Source of the DNA: Domibacillus indicus
GTDB taxonomy: Bacteria > Bacillota > Bacilli > Bacillales > Domibacillaceae
Direction: 5' to 3'
Assembly (NCBI RefSeq): GCF_000970685.1
Contig: NZ_LAJB01000010.1
Location: forward strand, 1 to 64,000
DNA: 64,000 nt
Translations under genes and position numbers: made by a program
Notes under the pieces: generated by a model
Seen by the model: the letters and a program-made list of their open reading frames with translations, nothing else
Told to the model about the DNA's origin: nothing
Databases searched by the model: none
Part shown: positions 32,413 through 53,856 of the stretch, one piece after another
How the letters are laid out: every line of letters starts with the position of its first letter
How positions within the stretch are numbered: position 1 is the stretch's first letter

Positions 32413-33762
32413 TTATTTTCTTTTGCTTTTCTTTTGTTTTTCTTTTCCCTTTGTACCGGCAGGCTTTATCGTTATTTCTGAGCCGGCCTCTGTTTTATAC
32501 TGGTCAACAGCAATGTTTTTCTTCTTATTGGAGCCGTTAGAAGAGCCCTGGTCTTCGGTAATAAGGTCTTGAATAGCAGCCCTTATCGCCATATCGGCCG
32601 CAGCTTCTGTCTGGTATGGATCTGCCACGGAAATAGTGTTTTGTACATTTAACTGTCCTGCTTCGTTCTGTTCATCGGTTACAGGAGCCTTTTTGGCTGT
32701 GCGAGTACCTGCTATGTCAGCTCCAGCTTCTGCCAGGTACAGACCATCAACATTATTTTTTGTTTTTCCCGACTGCCCTGGCGAGCCCTGGCCGCCATTT
32801 GCATTGGAGCTTTTAGCAACAGGCTTGACTGACATATCAGACCCGGCTTCCGCCTGGTACGGATCACCAGCATTGTTTTGGGATTTACCGGACTGTCCCG
32901 CCGAGTACTGGCTGCCGTTTGTGTTGGAGCTTTTGGCTTCAGGCTTGACTGACATATCAGACCCGGCTTCTGCCTGGTATGAATTACTGGCATCGTTTTT
33001 TGTTTTGCCGGATCGGACCGGTGAGCCGAGGCCGCTGTTTATGCTGGTGTTTTTAACTGCTGGATTCACTGACATGTCAGAGCCGGCTTCTGCCCGGTAT
33101 GGATCACTGGCATTGTTTTTGGTTTTATTAGACTGTCCCGCTGAGACCTGGCTGCCGTTTGCATTGGTGTTTTTGGCAGGTTTAACCGCCATATCAGACC
33201 CGGCTTCTGTTTTATACTGGGTGACAGCAATATTTTTCCTCTTGTCCAGCTGGGCATTGGAGACTTGTTTGCCGTTTGCTTTAGCATTTTTGGTTACAGG
33301 CCGGACTGCCATGTCAGAGCCAGCTTCTGTCTGGTATTTAAAGGTGGACACAGTTTTAGAAGTATTCGCCTTATTATTAGCAGAACTTTTTTGTCCTTTT
33401 TGCAGTCCTTTTGTAAGTCCCTGCTTCTGCAGGTACATATGGAAAAAGAATTCGCCAGCCATAATGATAACAGCAGACAAAAAAGCAGCGGTTCCTAATG
33501 GAATGGGGCCTTCAAACAAAAGAGCTCCCAGTGCCCACACGACCAGCAGTGCTAAACCGAAATCCGCAAGTGTGGAAACGGTGTTTTTGAATCTGGGCAA
33601 AAGAAACAGATCTCCGATAAGGAAGCCCACACCGGTCAGCAGAACGCTGGTCGTCAGAATATCGCCAATAGAAACGTTATACAGTCCGCCCAAGACAATC
33701 CAAAGAACAAATGTGACCATTACAAATTTTATTAACAGAGCTGTTACATATTTTATTGTCAT
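32413..33762 (-). CDS. DUF2512 (YndM-like) membrane protein with long repeat tail
   Basis: Residues 1-118 form four membrane helices of the DUF2512/YndM family (FLIGDLFLLPRFKNTVSTLA is typical), whose members are usually 120-160 residues. Here a hydrophilic tail follows (to residue 449) made of eight units of 39-41 residues, each with the core YxTEAGSDMxVKP (Tyr at 143, 183, 222, 262, 302, 342, 383, 422). The linkers are rich in Lys, Asn, Gly, Ser and Gln. The end KGKEKQKKSKRK is very basic. The role is unknown; DUF2512 genes often belong to sporulation regulons. Ribosome-binding site GAAGGAGGAACGAAC. Confidence 0.8.
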   Translation of the reverse strand: MTIKYVTALLIKFVMVTFVLWIVLGGLYNVSIGDILTTSVLLTGVGFLIGDLFLLPRFKNTVSTLADFGLALLVVWALGALLFEGPIPLGTAAFLSAVIIMAGEFFFHMYLQKQGLTKGLQKGQKSSANNKANTSKTVSTFKYQTEAGSDMAVRPVTKNAKANGKQVSNAQLDKRKNIAVTQYKTEAGSDMAVKPAKNTNANGSQVSAGQSNKTKNNASDPYRAEAGSDMSVNPAVKNTSINSGLGSPVRSGKTKNDASNSYQAEAGSDMSVKPEAKSSNTNGSQYSAGQSGKSQNNAGDPYQAEAGSDMSVKPVAKSSNANGGQGSPGQSGKTKNNVDGLYLAEAGADIAGTRTAKKAPVTDEQNEAGQLNVQNTISVADPYQTEAAADMAIRAAIQDLITEDQGSSNGSNKKKNIAVDQYKTEAGSEITIKPAGTKGKEKQKKSKRK

Positions 33763-34089: not shown

Positions 34090-34929
34090 TTAAAAGGCTG
34101 ATGAAATAATTGCCTGAACAGCAGAAAGGGGTATTATTATTTTCTGTTCTTTCTTTATGGAAATAACGGTTACGGCTTCCTGGTCTACTTCATGGATAAC
34201 GCCGGTAATAACCTGGCCAGGAAGAATTACTTTTACGTTTTTATGCAGATAGCCAAGCAAAAAAATGGGCAGTGTTATTTTGAAGAAAAGGTGAAGCAGC
34301 GCAGGGGAAGAAGCGACCGTTTCGCCGAATTGAAACATAAGTAACCGGCGGAGCGCAGGATCAATATTGAGCAGCGCCGGCTCTTTATCCAGTCCAGGAT
34401 GGCGTGTAAAGGATTTTACCACCTGTATTTTTAAAAATGGAATGATAATTTCCTGTTCTTTTTTCTTTAAAAGCACGAAATCACGTCCAGCGACTTCAAC
34501 ACGTCCAGACTGCTTATAAAAAAGGGCAGTGCTTTTTCGTGCAGCTTTTTGACTCAGCTTTTTTCGGCGGATATTTGCTTTTGGAGAAACGGCACGGCTT
34601 TTCGCTGTTTGTCGGACTGCCAGGTTTTTTTTTAGTAAAATACTTTTTCTGATATTGGATTTTGTAGCTTGATCTCCTGTTTCTTCAGCAGCTGCCATGT
34701 CTTTTTCCGCTTCACGTATAAGAATGACTTCTGCCCACTGGCCGATTAAGCCCTCAAATGAAACTCTTCTTCCTTCTTCCGACTGCTCGTTTGATAACGC
34801 AAGATTCAGCAGCAGATCATTGGCTTCCTCAATCTTAGCCTCGAGTTCTTCCTGTTCTTCTTCGGGAAGACAGGAGGACGGAGAAGGAAAAGCCGGCTTT
34901 TTTATATCATTCAAATGGTTTTCCTCCAT
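34090..34929 (-). CDS. Paralogue of the MnxD-like protein
   Basis: A 279-residue soluble protein that clearly aligns with the protein at 40373-41137: GRVEVAGRDFVLL / GRVNAIGRDFVML, then IIIPF / MWIPF, LLMFQFGETVA / LLSNFGETVA, and a C-terminal VITGVIHEVDQEAV / AVTGKIEETRKKI. Each looks like two small beta-barrels joined by a helical part. This copy has a basic linker (SPKANIRRKKLSQKAARK, ~110-127) and an acidic N-terminus. I chose the ATG at 34929 (AAAGGAAG upstream). Function unknown; its position at the mnx locus suggests a spore-surface role. Confidence 0.65.
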   Translation of the reverse strand: MEENHLNDIKKPAFPSPSSCLPEEEQEELEAKIEEANDLLLNLALSNEQSEEGRRVSFEGLIGQWAEVILIREAEKDMAAAEETGDQATKSNIRKSILLKKNLAVRQTAKSRAVSPKANIRRKKLSQKAARKSTALFYKQSGRVEVAGRDFVLLKKKEQEIIIPFLKIQVVKSFTRHPGLDKEPALLNIDPALRRLLMFQFGETVASSPALLHLFFKITLPIFLLGYLHKNVKVILPGQVITGVIHEVDQEAVTVISIKKEQKIIIPLSAVQAIISSAF

Positions 34930-35205
34930 ATGGATACTTCCTTTCCAAATCAAACGTAGTATTTTTGCCGTGATTGGAAAACGGTCTTGGTTTTTCTTCA
35001 TATTGTATGTGAATGGTTTTTACTTGTGATTTAAAAGAAAAAATTCCATTTTTTCACGGAAAAGGGCAAGGGGTTTATTCGTATCTAGCAGTCAAGCATA
35101 AAATAATAGCAAGCTGTAAGAAGCAAAACAAAATCGCCACGCAGCTTTTCTGTATGCTTTTTCGGTGGATTGGCGTTCATTTTAAAGAAAAAGGAGGAAA
35201 GAAAA

Positions 35206-35706
35206 ATGAGTACACTAAACTGCCATTGTCATGATTTCCGAGAACATCATGATTTCTGCAGCTGCAAGGACCGATACCGCCATAGCGATTCCAATCGGCA
35301 TGCCCGCCACTCGTATTTGGACGATTATCGTTTTGGCCGGCATCATAATAGATGCAGCCGTTGTTTTCGCAGCCGCCTTTCCTATCATGATGGGTACAGC
35401 CATGATTCACATGGACGATTTCATTACTTCGCAGACAGCTGTTTATGCGATGACAATTTCCGCGTCCGCCTAAGCGGATTAAGAAGCGGCATGGCGTTTC
35501 GCCTGCGGCAGCTGATAGATTGCCGTGTGAGAATGGTTCTTGAAGAAAACGTTAGAGTGCATGGGAAAATTACCTTTATAGGAAGCGATTTTGTTGAAAT
35601 TGTCAGCGCAGTGAAAAAAGACAAAAACAAGCACGAGTTTACGAAAAAAGTGCTGCTTGTTCAATTCGATCAAATCAAGATGGTCGAACATGTAGACAAA
35701 ATGTAA
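35206..35706 (+). CDS. His/Cys-rich protein with C-terminal small-barrel domain
   Basis: A 166-residue protein. The first ~85 residues contain 13 His and 8 Cys (LNCHCHDFREHHDFCSC, HHNRCSRC, SCLC), suggesting metal binding or coat cross-linking. Residues ~95-166 form a small beta-barrel (RVRMVLEENVRVHGKITFIG then SDFVEIV, and VLLVQFDQIKMVE) similar in pattern to the barrels of the mnx-locus proteins. Strong ribosome-binding site AAAGGAGGAAAGAAAA. Convergent with mnxG. Probably a spore coat protein; not a recognised family. Confidence 0.65.
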   Translation: MSTLNCHCHDFREHHDFCSCKDRYRHSDSNRHARHSYLDDYRFGRHHNRCSRCFRSRLSYHDGYSHDSHGRFHYFADSCLCDDNFRVRLSGLRSGMAFRLRQLIDCRVRMVLEENVRVHGKITFIGSDFVEIVSAVKKDKNKHEFTKKVLLVQFDQIKMVEHVDKM

Positions 35707-35730
35707 TTTTTTAGTCGAAAGCGGTTCGGA

Positions 35731-35763
35731 AAAATCGGTGCTCCGGTGCAGAGCACCGATTTT
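35731..35763. terminator. Bidirectional terminator between the His/Cys-rich gene and mnxG
   Basis: Perfect 13-bp stem AAAATCGGTGCTC (35731-35743) with GAGCACCGATTTT (35751-35763), centred in the 76-bp gap between the convergent genes. Confidence 0.85.
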
Positions 35764-35782
35764 CAGCTTGACCTGTTTTGTG

Positions 35783-38700
35783 TCAATAGTCCAGAGGAGG
35801 CAAATGAGGCTGTGGTTTGCTGTGAACGCGGATAATGCCCCACATGCCCTGCTCAATATCCCAGCGAATGTTGCCCGAACGGTACATATAGTCACCTGGA
35901 TAATTGAAAGTGCCTCCTGCACCGCCCAGCAAATACAAATCGTGTGCTTCACCCGCAACCATGTGGCCGACAACTGAAACATCACTGGAATCCAGCTCTC
36001 TTGGATCCTGTTTCCAGTTATGGCCGTGTAAATGAAACGTGTGGGTTCTTCTCCGTTCTGATGGATTGGTGAGCCGGATGATAACAGGATCACCGGCGTA
36101 TGCTTCAAAAACAGGAGTGGCCGGATCGCCGTGTACCGTTGAACTGAACAAATCGCCTAAAACCGGATGCTTTTTAAAGCGGTTGATCAGCCGCTCCGTT
36201 CGGTAATTAAAGCCGCGCGAGCCGAAATCATACGTGTCGACTTCGTCATCGGGGTCGGATTCCAAAAGGACGCCGTCAACCGGATCAATAATGACTTTGC
36301 CCTGCTGATCTTCCAGGCGGACACCATCATGCATAATCAAAACGAATTCTCTGGATGAACCGGCAAGCGGATTTTTAAGCACTACATCTGTGCCGGTGAC
36401 CACGGGCTCCATCGTACGAGGATCATGGTACGTTGTGAAACGGGGTTCCGCAATGAAAGCGCCGAACGTTCCAAATGAGCGGTGGTTCCGCAGGTCAGCC
36501 ATATCCCACATGGCACAGGTCCCCAGTGCTGACTGCACATGCCAGCGGTACGTAATTGTTTCACCAGGGCCCACTGTCTGGTCCGGGTTAAAGCCGACGG
36601 TGTCCCCACTCGAAGTTGTTACGTCATAATCAAGCAGGCTGGCGTGCAGGGAAATTCGCAGAGAAGGCGGATAAAAGCCCTGCTCCTTCACTGGAGGGTA
36701 TGGGTGAACGCCGTCTGTAAATGGAAACAAATCCAATTGCAGCCGGCTTGTTAATGTCACTTCCACAAGATCTCCAATATTGCCTCGAAGCACAAGAGGC
36801 TCAGGATTTTTTTTGCCCGATAAAATGTCCTCTACATTTTCTTCCAAAGCAAACACGATGCCGTACGGATCATGGTCGCCAAATGAGTTATATAAAATCG
36901 GCGTTTGAAACGCGACTACGCTGTATTGCCGGACGGGCGGATCATGCGCCAATTCTGGCGGCAGCGTGCACTGCGGATCGGCAGGCGCCGGCGGTTTTCC
37001 GGTTACTTCCGGCAGCGGTCTTGTTCTCGGTTCGGGCAGCGGCTGGTCAGCCAATGGAATTAAGTGCTCCACTTCCTGATCATAGGCCCGGATCAGTCCC
37101 CATGTGCCATTCCACACATCTTCTTCTGTTTCAAAAGCCCATAAATAGTCTCCGGATTTTGGAATATACATTTCAAATGTAAAGGATTCTGAAATACCGA
37201 TATGCTGCTGCGAACGAAGCTCGGAATCTTCGCTCGGACGATCCTGCGGCCACCTTAATCCATGAACGTTAAAGCTGTGGGATTCTTCATGGGCACCCTG
37301 CAGCAGTCGAATCCGGATCGGGTCTCCTTCATAAGCGTATAAGATGGGGGTAACCGGGTCGCCGTTCACATAAGAGCTGAATGAATATGCCGGATCACAG
37401 TTCTTGCCGAGCCGGAATTGCAGCGGCTCATTTTTAAAATTAACCGCAAAAATGCCGGGGTCATCCAGAGAACCGGGGTACTGCGGCGGCTGGATCGGAC
37501 AGCCGTCTTTATCAAACAAATAAACGAAATCCTGGACGAACAGGGAAAAATCACGGTAGTCAGGGATAAGCGGGTTATGGACAGTAATCTGGGCACCGCA
37601 TTCTGTTTCTTCACCGGTTTCAGAATCAAGGAACCTGGAAAAGCGGGGCTGAACGACAATCGCTCCGAAAACACCGTGCTGCTGATGCGAAAGAGCAAAT
37701 AAATGATCATGAACGAAAAAAGCTTTTAATTCGGTATCAGCAAAATATTCATAGCGGATTGTTTCATTCGGCAGAACAGAGCTGTCATAATTCCAGCCAA
37801 CATTGGAACCATCGGCAACCAGAACATCAAATTTGACAAAATGAACATGAAAAGCCGACTCATAAGTGCGGGTGACCAGCTGGAATGCATCACCATCAAG
37901 TATATGGGGCAGCCGATTGGTAAAATTTAAACGAATACAGGTATTAGCCGGCACATGCAACACAAGCGGCTCGGGCTCTTTTTTGCCAGACAGCACATCA
38001 TCCACTTCTTCATCGAGCACATATATTCTTCCTTTTGGGTCATACCAGCTCTGCTTGTTATAAACAATGGGCAATTCGATAAGAGATACATTAAATTCTA
38101 CGACAAACGGATTACCCAGGCTCGTATCAACAAAAACAGCGCCCGGCCTGGCATCTGGTATGGCCGCATTTTTTTCAAGTTCGGTCATTTCCCGGCCGCC
38201 GACAATACCGAGAGGAGGCCTTGGCGCCTTGCAGCCCACTTTTCCCGGAATAAAATTGGGGAACCCCGGCTGTTCTTTTGTTGGAAGCGGAGGAAGGGGG
38301 CGGTCCGGCAGAGGCTGGAGCGGCGCAATCGGCCTGCCGTTCGGGTAGCACTGGCTTCCATCCTGGAGTTTATCGAAAATACGGTTCATTCCCCACATTC
38401 CTACTTCAAAGTGAGGATATAAATGACAGTGAATGATAACATCGCCAATGGAACCGGGCAGGCTGCCAAGCCCGTATAGTGGCTGGACATTGTAGTGCGT
38501 CTGCGGGCTGATTGACTGGGCATCAATAATTTCTGACTGCACATTCCCCGGATCCCTGAGCCACTGATGTGCATGGTAGTGGAATACATGCGTTTCTTTG
38601 GCAGCTCCATGAATAAGGCGGATAATAGCCGGATCATCCCGGTAGCCGCGCAGAATAGGAGTGGCGGGATCACCAAATGTCCAGGAATCATGATGAACTT

Positions 38701-39430
38701 CCTCGCCTTCCACTTCAGGTGACACGACTCCTTCCTCCACCAGCCTCAGGCGGTTCTCAAGAGGTTCATAGCGGTAGTTTACACCGTGAAATGATTCGGC
38801 TTCCTGGTTTGTGACGGGATTAAGCGGGCGGTTGCCAGTTAAATCATTGACTTCCATTTCATCATGGAAAAACCATGCAAACTCGCGGAAAGAGGGAAGA
38901 AAAGGGTTATGGATATCCGCGTAAACGCCGCTGCTCAGTGGTCCGCCCGTTACAGGATCAGTCCACCAGGAGCCTCTTTTTTCAACGAGCAATGTACCGA
39001 AAAGGCCCTGAATGCTGGAGCCTTCTTCACTGCTCGATACGTTGCCGACATCCGTGAAAAAACAAATTCCTTCATGAGTAGTCTGTAAGCGGTACAGAAG
39101 GCTTTCCCCGCATTCTGCCAGGGAGGGCGGATTGTACCCGACATTGGCACCATCTGACGTCAGCACGTTATAATCGAGATCTTGAAAGTGCATGCCGGCT
39201 GCAAAGGGAAGCTGGTTTTCAAAGAGAATCTCAACTGTGTCTCCCTCGTTGGCCCTGATCGTCAGCGGCTGGACAAGATCCACCGGAGTAAACGGGTTTT
39301 TTCGTACCAGTTCTTTTACGGCTTCTTCATTTTCTTTCAGTACGTACATTCTTCCGTCTGGGTTGTGGTCGCCAAAATTGTTGACCACAATCCGGATTGG
39401 AACCGCCACTACATGATAACGCCGTATCAT
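35783..39430 (-). CDS. mnxG: MnxG-type multicopper oxidase (manganese oxidase)
   Basis: A giant 1215-residue multicopper oxidase with three large repeats of paired cupredoxin domains (each starting like YHVVAVPIRIVVNNFGDHNP; repeats near 1, 430 and 830). The length matches MnxG of Mn(II)-oxidising Bacillus spores (about 138 kDa). Copper ligands: HVFHYHAHQW (His281-His288) and IHCHLYPHFEVGM (His334, Cys335, His336, His340, Met345) in the first third; HVH 528-530, HDH 574-576 and H718/H723 in the second; FHLHGH (1133-1137) in the third. No signal peptide, as expected for a mother-cell-made outer spore layer. Last gene of a mnxD-E-F-G-like operon; ribosome-binding site GGGAGGGAAAACG. Confidence 0.9.
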   Translation of the reverse strand: MIRRYHVVAVPIRIVVNNFGDHNPDGRMYVLKENEEAVKELVRKNPFTPVDLVQPLTIRANEGDTVEILFENQLPFAAGMHFQDLDYNVLTSDGANVGYNPPSLAECGESLLYRLQTTHEGICFFTDVGNVSSSEEGSSIQGLFGTLLVEKRGSWWTDPVTGGPLSSGVYADIHNPFLPSFREFAWFFHDEMEVNDLTGNRPLNPVTNQEAESFHGVNYRYEPLENRLRLVEEGVVSPEVEGEEVHHDSWTFGDPATPILRGYRDDPAIIRLIHGAAKETHVFHYHAHQWLRDPGNVQSEIIDAQSISPQTHYNVQPLYGLGSLPGSIGDVIIHCHLYPHFEVGMWGMNRIFDKLQDGSQCYPNGRPIAPLQPLPDRPLPPLPTKEQPGFPNFIPGKVGCKAPRPPLGIVGGREMTELEKNAAIPDARPGAVFVDTSLGNPFVVEFNVSLIELPIVYNKQSWYDPKGRIYVLDEEVDDVLSGKKEPEPLVLHVPANTCIRLNFTNRLPHILDGDAFQLVTRTYESAFHVHFVKFDVLVADGSNVGWNYDSSVLPNETIRYEYFADTELKAFFVHDHLFALSHQQHGVFGAIVVQPRFSRFLDSETGEETECGAQITVHNPLIPDYRDFSLFVQDFVYLFDKDGCPIQPPQYPGSLDDPGIFAVNFKNEPLQFRLGKNCDPAYSFSSYVNGDPVTPILYAYEGDPIRIRLLQGAHEESHSFNVHGLRWPQDRPSEDSELRSQQHIGISESFTFEMYIPKSGDYLWAFETEEDVWNGTWGLIRAYDQEVEHLIPLADQPLPEPRTRPLPEVTGKPPAPADPQCTLPPELAHDPPVRQYSVVAFQTPILYNSFGDHDPYGIVFALEENVEDILSGKKNPEPLVLRGNIGDLVEVTLTSRLQLDLFPFTDGVHPYPPVKEQGFYPPSLRISLHASLLDYDVTTSSGDTVGFNPDQTVGPGETITYRWHVQSALGTCAMWDMADLRNHRSFGTFGAFIAEPRFTTYHDPRTMEPVVTGTDVVLKNPLAGSSREFVLIMHDGVRLEDQQGKVIIDPVDGVLLESDPDDEVDTYDFGSRGFNYRTERLINRFKKHPVLGDLFSSTVHGDPATPVFEAYAGDPVIIRLTNPSERRRTHTFHLHGHNWKQDPRELDSSDVSVVGHMVAGEAHDLYLLGGAGGTFNYPGDYMYRSGNIRWDIEQGMWGIIRVHSKPQPHLPPLDY

Positions 39431-39446
39431 CGTTTTCCCTCCCTTG

Positions 39447-39743
39447 TTACACCATGTCGTTTAACTCTGGAATCCGCGGTTCACCGGGAAACTCAATATA
39501 AAATACTTCAATATGAGGGATATGAATGAGCCAGATCCGCTTTTCTAATGCAGCAAAATGGGTTGTTTCTACAAATAACTCCACATTGTTTTCTTTTAAA
39601 GAAATAATTTTACCGATAAACAGAAAAGGATAGGAGGGTGTCAGGATAAAGATTTTATGGCCAATCGCTCCCTTAAACTGGTCGATAAGCGCCTGTTCTT
39701 CTGCTGTACTAGAGTGAGGAAAACTGGATGAATTAAGTGTCAT
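39447..39743 (-). CDS. mnxF: MnxF-like small subunit of the manganese oxidase complex
   Basis: A 98-residue protein immediately upstream of mnxG (16-bp gap) with one small beta-barrel: IGHKIFILTPSYPFLFIGKI, NNVELFVETTHFAAL, RIWLIHIPHIEVFYIEF. Position and size (about 11 kDa) match MnxF, which with MnxE forms a small hexamer bound to MnxG and binds extra copper. Family membership is inferred from context and remembered sequence. Ribosome-binding site GGAAAGGAAGGTTAAAAA. Confidence 0.72.
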   Translation of the reverse strand: MTLNSSSFPHSSTAEEQALIDQFKGAIGHKIFILTPSYPFLFIGKIISLKENNVELFVETTHFAALEKRIWLIHIPHIEVFYIEFPGEPRIPELNDMV

Positions 39744-39766
39744 TTTTTAACCTTCCTTTCCTGTTT

Positions 39767-40345
39767 TTAAACGAGCGGGAACCGGGCATCGCAATCAAAG
39801 CAAGGAGTCAGGTGAGATATTTTTCCCAAAGGAAAGGACAGCGGCGTTGGAAACTGAAAGAATGGGGCGTTTAAAATTTTAATTGTAACTGGATCAATTG
39901 TCAGGTGGCCTTTGCCGACCTCAACAATAGGTCCGCAAAAAATAGGCCTGAACGTCTGGCCGAGTAAATTTAATTGAGGTGACTCTGTAACAAGAAGCAC
40001 ACTTTCTCCTAATAAAACATTCAGTTCCTTAAAGAAGCTGTCGGCTTTCCTGTCATCGTCCTCATCTTCCTCTTCATCATCGTAGTCCTCTTCATCCCCT
40101 TCATAATCATCATCATAGTCCTCAACTTCATCACTGTTAATATTCTTATCGTCCTTACTCTCATCAATATTGTGAGAAGTTTCGTTCTCACCCTGGTTTG
40201 TAATGGTTTGTTCTTTTATTTCCATTTCCGTATTTGTAATTTCGTTTTCATCGCTAACCGTTTCGCCGATGCCGGCTTTTCCTTCATGCTCTCCGGCTAT
40301 TGTTTCTTCTCGCTGTTCGTTTTTTTTGTTTTGTGCTTCGCTCAT
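39767..40345 (-). CDS. mnxE: MnxE-like subunit with acidic N-terminal extension
   Basis: A 192-residue protein. Residues ~104-192 (FFKELNVLLGESVLLVTESP, LGQTFRPIFCGPIVEVGKGH, IKILNAPFFQFPTPLSFPLG, DARFPLV end) fit what I recall of MnxE, a ~110-residue subunit of the MnxEFG complex. Unusually, a ~100-residue hydrophilic extension precedes it, ending in a tract at 72-98 with 22 Asp/Glu of 27. That tract could bind Mn2+ or Ca2+. It lies 23 bp upstream of mnxF and 27 bp downstream of the mnxD-like gene. Ribosome-binding site AAAGGAGAGTTAAA. Confidence 0.75.
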   Translation of the reverse strand: MSEAQNKKNEQREETIAGEHEGKAGIGETVSDENEITNTEMEIKEQTITNQGENETSHNIDESKDDKNINSDEVEDYDDDYEGDEEDYDDEEEDEDDDRKADSFFKELNVLLGESVLLVTESPQLNLLGQTFRPIFCGPIVEVGKGHLTIDPVTIKILNAPFFQFPTPLSFPLGKISHLTPCFDCDARFPLV

Positions 40346-40372
40346 TTTAACTCTCCTTTACTGATTGAGTAA

Positions 40373-41137
40373 TTACCAGTCAAGCTTTTTAATTATTCGT
40401 CGGCCAATTAATGGAAGGAGACTCAAGTAAGGTATGCTCCGGATCAGAACAATATGAGCCAGATCAATATCGTTTTTTTCGTTAAAAAAAGAAACATAGA
40501 GAATTTTTTTTCTGGTTTCTTCAATCTTTCCGGTGACCGCGTTTTTTTCTGTTTCAACCCGCACCCATGATGACTTCCAGGAATTCAAGCTGCTAGCAAG
40601 CGTTTCTTCATAAAACTGCTGAATTAATGTCTCGCGTCGGGCAACTGTTTCACCAAAGTTCGAAAGAAGGCGCTCTTTTAGCTGATTGTCATAAATAATA
40701 TTCTGGTGTGTTGTAGAGTAGAGAGGCACACCAGAGGGAATGTTCGCCGATTCAATTGCGTGAAAAGGAATCCACATTCGTTCCTTTGGAGTGGTAAGCA
40801 TGACAAAATCACGGCCAATAGCGTTTACCCTGCCCGTTGTTTTAACAACTTCATTGCCGTTCTGCAAAAAAATGATCACCTGCTGGTTTCGCCGCATTTT
40901 CAGAAACTTTTTTAGCATTAAAACCTTTCTTTTTTCGGGAGCAGCTTTTGCAATCTGCAGCAGATTTGCCTGCTCCTTATATTCGGCAAACAGCCGTATT
41001 TCTTCTGTCGGTACCGGCCCAGCGGGGGAGCTGAAGCCTTCCTTTGCTTCAGGAAACTTATCTTTATTTCGTGGTTCACGTTGTCTTTTTTCAAGCAACA
41101 AGGAAATATATTCATCCAGTCTTATACCGGTTTTCAT
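40373..41137 (-). CDS. MnxD-like protein, first gene of the mnxDEFG operon
   Basis: A 254-residue soluble protein with two predicted small barrels (VNAIGRDFVMLTTPKERMWI and a C-terminal RVETEKNAVTGKIEE unit) around a helical part with NFGETVARRETLIQQF. It is a paralogue of the protein at 34090-34929. Position ahead of mnxE-F-G matches mnxD of other Mn-oxidising Bacillus, but I cannot confirm that by sequence recall. I chose the ATG at 41137 because AGGGGGAAGCAG precedes it. Confidence 0.68.
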   Translation of the reverse strand: MKTGIRLDEYISLLLEKRQREPRNKDKFPEAKEGFSSPAGPVPTEEIRLFAEYKEQANLLQIAKAAPEKRKVLMLKKFLKMRRNQQVIIFLQNGNEVVKTTGRVNAIGRDFVMLTTPKERMWIPFHAIESANIPSGVPLYSTTHQNIIYDNQLKERLLSNFGETVARRETLIQQFYEETLASSLNSWKSSWVRVETEKNAVTGKIEETRKKILYVSFFNEKNDIDLAHIVLIRSIPYLSLLPLIGRRIIKKLDW

Positions 41138-41472
41138 CTGCTTCCCCCTCACTCAGAACTACAGGAAATTTATATGTGGGGGAATTTTGATTATTCTTTC
41201 AGAAAAGCTGAAGGCTTGATTGCTTTGTGAGGTTAAGTGTTGAAGGAGAAATTGCTGCCAGCAAACTTAGCAAAATTAGTTAGACGCATTATACGGGCCC
41301 GGGCACATCTTCATACGATATAAAACCGGGTGAAAACTTGAGATCAAAAAGAAGGAGCTGAACGGGCGAATAACTCATCGGGAATACGAGCAGTGCAGCA
41401 CTGAAAAGAACTGATACGCAAAAAATTTCCTGAATGAACAATTCGGATCACAATGGAAAGGAGGAGAAGAAG
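41138..41472. other. Divergent control region of the mnx locus
   Basis: A 335-bp region between the leftward mnxD-like gene and the rightward acidic-protein gene. The rightward SigK-like promoter is listed separately. Leftward, CATATAAAT (minus strand, 41176-41168) is a near match to a SigE/SigK -10 without a clear -35. No other gene is seen. Confidence 0.4.
41293..41320 (+). promoter_or_regulatory. SigK-type promoter
   Basis: CATACGATA (41312-41320) fits CATAnnnTA exactly and an AC (41293-41294) lies 17 bases upstream, as in SigK promoters. It would drive the plus-strand mnx genes late in sporulation. Confidence 0.6.
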
Positions 41473-42069
41473 GTGAACTTCAAAAAAAGAAAGGTTAAAA
41501 AATTATATACGTCAGGACCTGTGATAAATGCCACAAATGCTCAAGCGGCGCAAGAGCTGTGGGTATCGGTTATGAATTTTGATCATTCTGAAGTTAAAGT
41601 AGAAGTAGAAGTATTGAATTGGGGCGATCCCGCTGTTTCTTCTGGCCTTGTCACAACACCGGCTGGTATGGCCATACCGATGAAAGCGATGGCTGTACCA
41701 GTTATGCCGGCAGAACAAGTAAAAGTTCCTGCCTGGCAGACACAGCACTTTTTTGCGGATTTATTAACAGGAGCCCCTTTAGCAGGGCCTGTTCTTTCAT
41801 TTGAAATTCGCGTAACAGTCATTACTGATGACCCTCAGGCGAATGTGGTCTTTAACGCAGCCATCCTTGCTGCAGAAGCAGAAGAACTTCCAGAAGCTGA
41901 AGAGGCTGATGAAGATGAAGCAGAAGCTGCTGAGCTGACTGAGCTTGTGGCAGAGGAAGAAGAGGAAGAGGCTGAGGATGAAGCAGAAGCCGAAGCAGCT
42001 GCTTCTGTTACAGCTGCTTTTGTGCCGTTTAAAGATTTTGTTTTATTAGAACTGAAGAAGCTGAAGTAA
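41473..42069 (+). CDS. Acidic probable spore-surface protein
   Basis: A 198-residue protein. The N-terminal ~130 residues look like a beta-sandwich (LWVSVMNFDHSEVKVEVEVL, LSFEIRVTVITDDPQANVVF), a layout seen in Bacillus exosporium and coat-associated proteins. The C-terminal ~60 residues are almost pure Glu/Ala/Asp (for example EEEEEEAEDEAEAEAA) before a final hydrophobic VPFKDFVLLELKKLK. I chose the GTG at 41473 because AAAGGAGGAGAAGAAG precedes it; an upstream ATG at 41434 lacks a site. First gene behind the SigK-like promoter. Confidence 0.65.
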   Translation: MNFKKRKVKKLYTSGPVINATNAQAAQELWVSVMNFDHSEVKVEVEVLNWGDPAVSSGLVTTPAGMAIPMKAMAVPVMPAEQVKVPAWQTQHFFADLLTGAPLAGPVLSFEIRVTVITDDPQANVVFNAAILAAEAEELPEAEEADEDEAEAAELTELVAEEEEEEAEDEAEAEAAASVTAAFVPFKDFVLLELKKLK

Positions 42070-42104
42070 AAGCGGCTGTGCCTGTGCCGCTCAGAGAAGG
42101 TTTC

Positions 42105-42434
42105 ATGTCGGGTAATAAAGTAAAGCAGAAGATGTTTTTTGAAAAGGCTCCCGGCCAGCCCGAGGGGCTTTTTCATTCTGTTGAAATAAGAGAGAAGCTG
42201 TCTCGCGCTTCTGCAGGTTCAGTTCAGCCTGTTTGCGATCTTTTGAAAGAAACTAGCGCATTTCTGGCTGATAGAAGAAATATTGGCTCAAAGAACTGCA
42301 TATTGATAACAGCGAAAAAGCAGCCGCTTCTTTGGCTGATAAAAGTGAGGTGCCAGGAAGGTTATGCCTGCGCTGTTTTATCTGTTAACAATAGACGTAT
42401 TATTCTATATAGGCGCTTTTGTATATGCGTTTAA
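42105..42434 (+). CDS. Doubtful or broken small gene
   Basis: A frame starting MSGNKVKQKMFFEKAPGQPE with AGAAGG 5 bases upstream looks coding for ~60 codons (to about 42290) and then turns into low-quality sequence that overlaps the next gene by 71 bp. A different frame between about 42275 and 42350 (KKYWLKELHIDNSEKAAASL) also looks coding, so a frameshift near 42275 is possible. No family recognised. Confidence 0.3.
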   Translation: MSGNKVKQKMFFEKAPGQPEGLFHSVEIREKLSRASAGSVQPVCDLLKETSAFLADRRNIGSKNCILITAKKQPLLWLIKVRCQEGYACAVLSVNNRRIILYRRFCICV

Positions 42435-42777
42435 TAAGAAAAAGCTTATCGGCATTCAACTCGGCATGAATATCAGCCAGATAATGGGCGGAACCGCGGC
42501 ACTGCTTTCGGGGATCGTGCTTATCTCAGAGTTCCCCTTTCATTTTACAGTGGTCACCTTTATTTCCGCAGTAATCGGCATTCTGGCAGGAACGCTGTTT
42601 GGGCTGCTTTTTGATTATCAAACCGCCTTAACAGGAGTAACGAATGGCTTTATGATGGGGCTTATGTCTCCGATGCTGGGATCAATCATAAACACATCCA
42701 GCCTGGTTATCTGGTTTGTTCACGTCGTCTTTTTTTCTTGCCTGCTTTTCATTATGATTTCTATTCAAAGGTCGTGA
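42364..42777 (+). CDS. Small polytopic membrane protein of the mnx locus
   Basis: A 137-residue membrane protein with four hydrophobic segments and glycine-rich helices (MNISQIMGGTAALLSGIVLI, SAVIGILAGTLFGLLFDYQ, GVTNGFMMGLMSPMLGSI). It is translationally coupled (GTGA overlap) to a second membrane protein gene that shares the LYNGAAGALTGTMLG-like pattern, suggesting duplication. Position beside an SCO1/MnxC-like gene makes it a candidate MnxA/MnxB equivalent, but I cannot confirm that. Possibly metal transport or anchoring. Confidence 0.6.
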   Translation: MPALFYLLTIDVLFYIGAFVYAFNKKKLIGIQLGMNISQIMGGTAALLSGIVLISEFPFHFTVVTFISAVIGILAGTLFGLLFDYQTALTGVTNGFMMGLMSPMLGSIINTSSLVIWFVHVVFFSCLLFIMISIQRS

Positions 42778-43226
42778 AACCATTGCTCTTAATTATACTG
42801 TTAAGCAGCTGGAATGGCGTGGGCGGATACAGGCTTTACCGTGTATTTAAGAAGAAACAGGTGCTTTTTGATGATCATTTTACTCTGGCCGCCTGCATGG
42901 CTGTTACAATGCTTACATCGTTTTTGGCCGGATTGTATCTCATTTTACTTTTTCCTGATTTTTATATAATCCCGCTGCTTTCAGGTTTATGGATCGGCTG
43001 GAGGTTTGGTGCTGTTTTAAGGAGCCCGGCTCTTTTAAGCGGACTTTATAACGGGGCAGCCGGGGCGCTTACGGGGACAATGCTCGGTGCGGTCCTGCAA
43101 AATCCCGCTTTATGCAGGCTTCCTGCTGAAGCCGCCGGCATGGCGGATCTTTACAGCATTCCAGTGGCTGCCGCCTGCTTTTACATGTGTATTTTAGCCT
43201 CATTGCGTTATTCTTTACGAATGTAG
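42774..43226 (+). CDS. Second small membrane protein of the mnx locus
   Basis: A 150-residue protein with four membrane segments. The GTG start overlaps the previous stop (GTGA), implying coupled translation. The segment ALLSGLYNGAAGALTGTMLG parallels TALTGVTNGFMMGLMSPMLG of the neighbour, so the two are probably diverged copies forming a pair. A lone Cys-rich patch (NPALCRLPAEAAGM) lies near residue 110. It precedes the SCO1-like gene by 15 bp. Confidence 0.6.
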   Translation: MKPLLLIILLSSWNGVGGYRLYRVFKKKQVLFDDHFTLAACMAVTMLTSFLAGLYLILLFPDFYIIPLLSGLWIGWRFGAVLRSPALLSGLYNGAAGALTGTMLGAVLQNPALCRLPAEAAGMADLYSIPVAAACFYMCILASLRYSLRM

Positions 43227-43241
43227 GAAGGAGAGTGGCAG

Positions 43242-43820
43242 ATGAAGAAAGCTGGAGCTGCTGTTCTGGCCGGTGCGGCGTTATTACTTCTTTATTTTGC
43301 TGTTGTCTCTTTATCAGACCTTCCCAAGCTCGGAAAAGTAAAAGAAGCTTCTTTAAAAGAAGTAAGCGGAAATACATTTTCAACAGAGGGCAAGCCGGTG
43401 CTAGTCACTTTTTTTTATACGAAATGCCCCGATGTTTGCCCGCTTACAACGCAGGACTTAAAAAAGCTTCAGAATGTCTTAAAGGAAAAAGGAATATCGG
43501 AGAATCAGTATGCGATCCTGTATGTTACGCTTGATCCTGAGTACGATACCGTTCAAACGATATTAAAGTATAAAGAAGCATTTGATATTTCTTCACCTAA
43601 CTGGCTGTTTATGCGGGGTTCTGAAAAAGAAACAAAAAAATATGCAGAGCAGTTTAACATGGTGTATGAAAAAGAGGAGGAGGGCTTTATTACTCACTCA
43701 ACCTCCATGTATATACTGGATGCCAGCCGGAATATAAGAGCTGTTCATGATATGGCAGCAGGGAACAAAAGGGTGAATATTGAAGAAACAGCCGGGCATC
43801 TCATGGAATTAATCAAGTAA
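43242..43820 (+). CDS. SCO1/SenC-family copper and thiol protein (MnxC-like)
   Basis: A membrane-anchored thioredoxin-fold protein of 192 residues: an N-terminal helix (AAVLAGAALLLLYFAVVSLS) leads to an outward-facing domain with TKCPDVCP (Cys62, Cys66) and a distal His152 in FITHSTSMYILD, together the known Cu-binding triad of SCO proteins. In Mn-oxidising Bacillus the mnx operon contains MnxC with a thioredoxin-like motif, so this is the likely equivalent, supplying copper or redox control to MnxG. Ribosome-binding site AGGAAGGAGAGTGGCAG. Confidence 0.82.
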   Translation: MKKAGAAVLAGAALLLLYFAVVSLSDLPKLGKVKEASLKEVSGNTFSTEGKPVLVTFFYTKCPDVCPLTTQDLKKLQNVLKEKGISENQYAILYVTLDPEYDTVQTILKYKEAFDISSPNWLFMRGSEKETKKYAEQFNMVYEKEEEGFITHSTSMYILDASRNIRAVHDMAAGNKRVNIEETAGHLMELIK

Positions 43821-48130: not shown

Positions 48131-48156
48131 GAAAGAGAACTTTATTACTTTTACAT

Positions 48157-48228
48157 GCATCGTATATCGTCGAGAATAAGGCTTGACAGTTTCTACCGGA
48201 CTGCCGTAAATGGTCCGACTACGAATGA
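48157..48228 (+). ncRNA. Purine riboswitch (guanine class) of pbuG
   Basis: Aptamer with P2 GTCGAG/CTTGAC, junction AGTTTCTACCGGACTGCCGT and P3, closing with GTCCGACTACG. The pyrimidine that pairs with the ligand is C (GACTACG), which marks guanine/hypoxanthine rather than adenine. A terminator hairpin follows (48271-48300), giving transcription control of the permease. Confidence 0.88.
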
Positions 48229-48270
48229 ATGGAAGGAGATAAGCCTCTTTCTAAATTCTTTTGTTAGTCG

Positions 48271-53745: not shown

Positions 53746-53763
53746 GTAGATGACAATAAAGCA

Positions 53764-53830
53764 CCTCATATAATAGCGGGAATATGGCCCGCGAGTTTCT
53801 ACCGGCTGCCGTAAACAGCCGACTATGGGG
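53764..53830 (+). ncRNA. Purine riboswitch (guanine class) of the pur operon
   Basis: P1 is CCTCATA (53764-53770) with TATGGGG (53824-53830); core AGTTTCTACCGGCTGCCGTA; the specificity base is C in GCCGACTATGG, so guanine/hypoxanthine. A long terminator follows. Confidence 0.92.
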
Positions 53831-53856
53831 AAAGCATTCGAAATCTCGAACGACTG

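Follow-up and report, generated by a model that had tools for sequence, protein, structure and literature searches.

A divergently arranged mnx locus in Domibacillus indicus predicted to encode a manganese oxidase, with an acidic tail on MnxE

The window analysed here is a 64,000-nucleotide stretch of Domibacillus indicus DNA (assembly GCF_000970685.1, contig NZ_LAJB01000010.1, positions 1 to 64,000), in which positions 34090–43820 carry ten genes that, judged by their sequence relationships, are a genuine and intact mnx set for a manganese-oxidising enzyme complex. Few enzymes are known to form manganese oxide minerals directly with O2. The locus belongs to a known kind of system and departs from it clearly in one feature, the acidic tail that MnxE carries. 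On the minus strand lie mnxG (35783–39430), coding for a 1215-residue multicopper oxidase predicted to be the catalytic subunit, mnxF (39447–39743; ring subunit, 98 residues), mnxE (39767–40345; 192 residues, with a ring part at 102–192 preceded by an acidic tail about 100 residues long), and mnxD (40373–41152; 259 residues, starting at GTG or a nearby ATG), such that the order is D-E-F-G and the MnxE and MnxF genes directly precede mnxG. Divergent from these, on the plus strand, are mnxA-like and mnxB-like genes for small membrane proteins (42364–42777, 137 residues, and 42738–43226, 162 residues), which are 51% and 36% identical to their counterparts in Bacillus sp. SG-1 and paralogous to one another (hhalign 99.5), and mnxC (43242–43820), coding for an SCO1-type copper chaperone with a CPDVCP motif (PF02630, SCO1-SenC, E=1e-25; 40% identical to SG-1 MnxC). 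The other small proteins of the locus have no Pfam or NCBIfam match above the curated cut-off. The set is completed by genes for two proteins designated X and H and for an acidic protein. An earlier reading of the window made from its letters alone (the sequence-only reading) had placed all ten open frames, and an open reading frame check bears out their positions; the frames stand as placed, but the starts of H and of the acidic gene probably lie further in, at 35206 and 41473 respectively.

The names given to MnxG, MnxE and MnxF in the sequence-only reading were confirmed by homology search, in which they match chains A, B and E of the solved structure PDB 9bxa, taken by us to be the complex of Bacillus sp. 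PL-12. MnxG aligns to chain A over residues 1–1214 with 2162.9 bits, and the runner-up among solved sequences, a two-domain laccase, reaches 36.6 bits over about 100 residues; MnxE residues 102–192 match chain B (E=2.4e-32) and MnxF matches chain E (E=4.8e-26), so that MnxG, the MnxE core and MnxF can all be aligned with the solved complex. The MnxD-like and SCO1/MnxC-like assignments hold as well, MnxD being 46% identical to SG-1 MnxD. The genome of the window has one mnxG copy, and its product is 69.8% identical to SG-1 MnxG. Across 76 aligned MnxG rows (that of the window with 75 more, none shorter than 1100 residues), the type 1 copper positions H281, C335, H340 and M345 and the trinuclear-cluster positions H284, H286, H334, H336, H528, H530, H574 and H576 are invariant in 76/76, with the ligand roles of these 12 positions assumed from the general multicopper-oxidase pattern. 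Where all 76 rows carry H340 the 9bxa MnxG chain has Ala, which would be explained if that structure is, as we presume, of a point mutant. The G+C content is 0.48–0.50 over mnxG and mnxF (36001–40000), compared with 0.42 in flanking 2-kb blocks. For PL-12, the available part of one paper (PMC5622069) gives the composition of the complex as MnxG-E3F3, expressed as mnxDEFG, which matches the D-E-F-G order in the window; that part also names mnxEFG as needed and describes MnxE and MnxF as without known homologues.

To place this arrangement among relatives, related loci were collected by a scan of named genomes in which 92 stretches were confirmed, the best 80 giving 74 distinct loci; this set is biased towards the query and includes several loci from some genomes. 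The loci are 58–86% identical to the window in the best segment, with those of Domibacillus closest. Layout was assigned by a simple rule, in which the window's genes were mapped onto each locus and a locus was called co-directional if A stands before D on one strand. By this rule 30 of the 74 are co-directional and 22 divergent, 17 are without a nearby D, 4 have A elsewhere, and in one D is present but no A was found. The single co-directional operon that the sequence-only reading gives for the spore model is correct for SG-1 (L040), which has one mnxABCDEFG run, and no such single operon is found in the window. The same reading had called the split layout notable, a view that does not survive the comparison; with 22 of the 74 loci divergent, including loci of Lysinibacillus, Ureibacillus, Peribacillus, Mesobacillus and Halalkalibacterium, the layout is no novelty, and co-directionality thus does not define the Mnx family. 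The layout labels are clustered on the tree (5 changes for the co-directional label versus 23.9 in shuffles), and divergent loci occur on both sides of the root of the midpoint-rooted tree. SG-1 shares A, B, C, D, E, F and G with the window, with X and H adjoining, but its order is A-B-C-D-E-F-G followed by X and then by H on the other strand, whereas in the window A, B and C are divergent together with the acidic gene, and H has G on one side and X on the other.

The window falls within the Domibacillus set on the tree with a Shimodaira-Hasegawa-like approximate likelihood ratio test (SH-aLRT) support of 99. Loci of D. robiginosus, D. indicus and Domibacillus sp. PGB-M46 (L014, L060 and L002) agree with it in their divergent layout and in having the acidic gene, a tailed MnxE and both H and X, with 86% MnxG identity, although the D. 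indicus (L060) and PGB-M46 genomes differ in having several mnxG copies. Within the window's family mnxG (E<=1e-100) is present in 9 of 24 genomes, all nine belonging to the 13 genomes of its genus; each of the nine has between one and four copies. Several copies in one genome were noted for L006, L008, L012 and L017 and for G011, G012, G013 and G016, some of them in tandem, with two within about 11 kb, and the highest number, four, is in one genome of the window's genus. The MnxG of D. tundrae (L044) is sister to a Sporosarcina-Paenisporosarcina group and its locus is co-directional; genes named by eye as uvsE, osmC, trxR, DUF1540 and nadE adjoin mnx in the window as well as there, and such a distinct mnx operon in a shared chromosomal setting suggests replacement.

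The feature that sets the window's locus apart from the solved complex is the N-terminal part of MnxE. The solved MnxE has 110 residues, 19 of which precede the matched core, whereas in the window this place is taken by a tail of 101 residues including 41 Asp/Glu and 9 Lys/Arg; SG-1 MnxE is without an acidic tail. In a survey of MnxE proteins, 65 of 66 could be divided into tail and core, and a net acidic charge of at least 14 is present in the tails of 11 (eight from Domibacillus, the window counted, and three from Mesobacillus), the other 54 having 5 or less. Outside these 65, the MnxE proteins of L015, L024 and D. tundrae (L044) have short N-termini and no acidic tail, D. tundrae being a Domibacillus with the mnx locus of another lineage. 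On a tree of the 64 MnxG rows that have an MnxE next to them, the acidic tail requires three changes. The eight Domibacillus tails are of low complexity, vary from 54 to 111 residues with 41–65% Asp/Glu (that of D. iocasae has a run of 43 acidic residues), and over the 28 pairs are on average 34% identical, compared with 84% for the cores.

Two further genes lie beside mnxG. X (34090–35001, minus strand) codes for a protein of 303 residues, with its start codon uncertain and with small-beta-barrel domains, and is a paralogue of MnxD; the two align over their length with an hhalign probability of 100 (E 1.4e-40). H (35206–35706, plus strand) lies in an open frame of 178 residues at 35170–35706, with ATG 35206 as the probable start, and combines a His/Cys-rich N-terminus with a small-beta-barrel C-terminus; C20 and C93 are invariant in an alignment of 34 family members. 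X is assigned in 66 of the 74 loci and H in 45, SG-1 being included in both cases. Among the genomes of the window's family, X/D matches are present in 9/9 with mnxG and 0/15 without, and H in 8/9 and 0/15, counts that, the genomes being related, do not amount to a statistical test; the genome without H (G018) has a sole, weaker X/D match (E 3.1e-32), of the strength seen for MnxD elsewhere. X, H and the acidic gene had been thought unfamiliar in mnx loci, which holds only for the acidic gene, present in 6/74 loci, all of Domibacillus. With their recurrence and co-occurrence with mnxG, X and H are ruled out as foreign genes, and they are candidate parts of the manganese-oxidase system.

The accessory proteins also have relatives elsewhere. 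DUF2642 proteins have a role in spores, and by profile comparison, together with a structural model for MnxD alone, MnxD, X and H are predicted Sm/SH3-like small-barrel proteins related to DUF2642 and GerQ. The AlphaFold2 model of MnxD, with a mean predicted local distance difference test (pLDDT) score of 81.8, has five-stranded barrels at residues 91–137 and 196–239. Its only Foldseek match at E<=0.001 is an archaeal-virus protein (2x4j, E 1.3e-4), followed by tandem Tudor domains, by Hfq chains (template modelling scores by target of about 0.7–0.8, E of about 0.02) and by GerQ filaments (8zra, E 0.033); 9bxa chains are not in the best 50 of 1079 matches. Domain matches of family members were counted at E up to 1, mostly below curated cut-offs or with none shown. 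On this count the X members (n=47) match the RimP SH3 domain DUF150_C in 26 cases, DUF2642 in eight, LSM in three and Hfq in one, the D members (n=49) DUF150_C in ten and DUF2642 in three, and the H members (n=34) DUF150_C in two and DUF2642 in one, a weak spot of the barrel assignment. DUF150_C is matched in 6/41 F members, and no barrel family is among the 25 matches listed for MnxE.

Profiles built from families collected in 61 genomes of the class align by hhalign to DUF2642 with values of 95 for X, 88 for H, 68 for D, 62 for E and 12 for F, and to GerQ with 76 for X, 34 for D and at most 6.3 for the others. Against Hfq all eight profiles tried give at most 1.1, so that Hfq kinship is unsupported by sequence, although the MnxD model is Hfq-like in shape. 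The controls MnxC, acidic protein and MnxA stay at or below 1.4 against DUF2642, GerQ and Hfq and at or below 3.2 against any profile. One barrel is common to X and H (96.6), while D aligned directly to H gives 26–40, another weak spot of the group. Membership of MnxE and MnxF is only suggested by these profiles; E aligns to F with 69, E and F to D with at most 2.7, and F to X with at most 8.3. MnxD differs from DUF2642 and GerQ in having two barrels, with X alignable to it over its length, and a search of the window's genome for DUF2642 found none at E<=0.001. The kinship with spore small-barrel proteins suggests an origin for the accessory proteins and a possible part in holding the complex in the coat.

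Upstream of the arm formed by the acidic gene and mnxABC is a sigma-K-like promoter site, AC-N17-CATACGATA (41293–41320, plus strand; 6/6 fixed -10 positions), which agrees in full with the sigma-K pattern as we assume it; shuffles of the region contain a mean of 0.014 such sites. The site is equally placed in six relatives with the acidic gene, with 6/6 positions in three and 5/6 in three, and a conserved sequence block is present upstream of mnxD. The first gene of the arm (41434–42069, plus strand) is a frame of 211 residues with a predicted beta-sandwich core and an Asp/Glu tract, and probably starts at GTG 41473, which is preceded by AAGGAGG. Of the nine family genomes with mnxG, eight have it, and it is partly present in three that have no mnxG, two of these being short N-terminal matches, so that it is not tied to mnx. 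At the mnx locus the gene is an addition particular to this lineage, with the conserved sigma-K-like site ahead of it. A fold search with the protein reached E<=0.001 for no structure; its model (mean pLDDT 65.9) comes closest to Thermotoga TM1070 and to the sensory rhodopsin transducer of Anabaena (E 4e-3 to 1e-2), a weak resemblance that is only a lead.

In the mechanism that we propose, MnxG would take electrons from Mn(II), and then from Mn(III), at the type 1 copper and pass them to O2 at the three-copper cluster, with MnxE and MnxF forming a ring bound to MnxG, most likely as a spore-located complex of MnxG-E3F3 composition. The copper supply most likely falls to MnxC together with the two membrane proteins, MnxA and MnxB, and the barrel-type proteins MnxD, X and H most likely act in assembly or in anchoring to the spore coat. 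The acidic-mnxABC arm would be read late in sporulation from the sigma-K-type promoter. The acidic tail of MnxE is probably a binding site for Mn(II) or for the oxide as it grows, and an E3F3 ring, should it apply to this locus, would bring three such tails to each complex.

We consider it very probable that the mnx locus is complete and codes for a Mn(II) oxidase of the spore, the activity and the spore location both being predicted from the gene set. Several observations weigh against this. The NCBIfam MnxG model NF041487 gives the window's MnxG 300.6 bits, well below its cut-off of 3100, and describes a different protein of 1894 positions, presumably that of the Pseudomonas type. A strict scan upstream of mnxD, X and H found no sigma-K-like site, and the best site in the same scan upstream of mnxA in SG-1, where mnx is reportedly sigma-K controlled, matches at 5/6 positions. 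The acidic protein of the window is missing the N-terminal Cys4 motif of its relatives, unlike those of L014, L060 and L002, which keep it, and the gene may therefore be decaying; the relatives' start codon is also gone from the aligned stretch upstream. That the multicopper oxidase is instead a laccase or a bilirubin-oxidase/CotA-like enzyme with no manganese oxidase activity is scarcely credible: it has general Cu-oxidase Pfam domains, and two-domain laccases do appear as weak local matches, but the sequence-only reading's choice of MnxG over such enzymes agrees with the best solved match running the whole length of 9bxa_A at some two thousand bits more than the laccase match, with the lack of any CotA or bilirubin oxidase name among the 51 matches listed, and with the partners MnxE and MnxF encoded at the locus. 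A CotA or laccase identity for 35783–39430 was rejected. A real mnx homologue might otherwise oxidise another metal in this genus, or be mainly a coat protein. As genomes of the genus differ in copy number (0 to 4), diversification of the role is possible, and the window's acidic gene is partly lost, but all 12 copper-ligand positions are kept, as are the ring partners E and F in the same order, and we regard this alternative as improbable.

Assuming a spore Mn(II) oxidase, the tail of MnxE can be read in more than one way. Its divergence with kept acidity fits selection on charge, and also drift of a repeat. That the tail is without function, a simple-sequence codon repeat drifting neutrally, is a serious possibility that we place somewhat short of an even chance: the low complexity, the variable length and the much lower identity of tails than of cores are what drift would give, and the tail is absent from D. 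tundrae, which has a different mnx lineage, yet the Asp/Glu fraction is kept in all eight proteins despite their divergence, and tail charge among the 65 proteins is bimodal. More speculative, and rather unlikely to hold as a whole, is the joint proposal that in Domibacillus and some Mesobacillus flexible poly-Asp/Glu tails of the MnxE ring collect Mn(II), nucleate the oxide, or both, at the mouth of the assembly of MnxG and ring, as acidic biomineralisation proteins do, and that small-barrel proteins of the spore coat were the source of the whole accessory set, D, X and H together with, probably, E and F. As tailed MnxE proteins stand beside close tail-less relatives, the role of this subunit is open to experiment.

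A literature search, with subscription papers outside its scope, returned none joining Domibacillus with mnxG. One paper in which Domibacillus, manganese and multicopper oxidase all occur (PMC12679158) reports, in the part available, community abundances and no Domibacillus oxidase. Elsewhere in the window, a gene at 32413–33762, whose product we take to be a YndM-like protein, contains a 120-bp tandem repeat (32726–33209, about 4 copies, 73% matches) encoding EAGSDM-type repeats. Two purine riboswitches are present on the plus strand, at 48141–48241 and 53746–53845, the first of them just past a gene named by eye as guaA-like.

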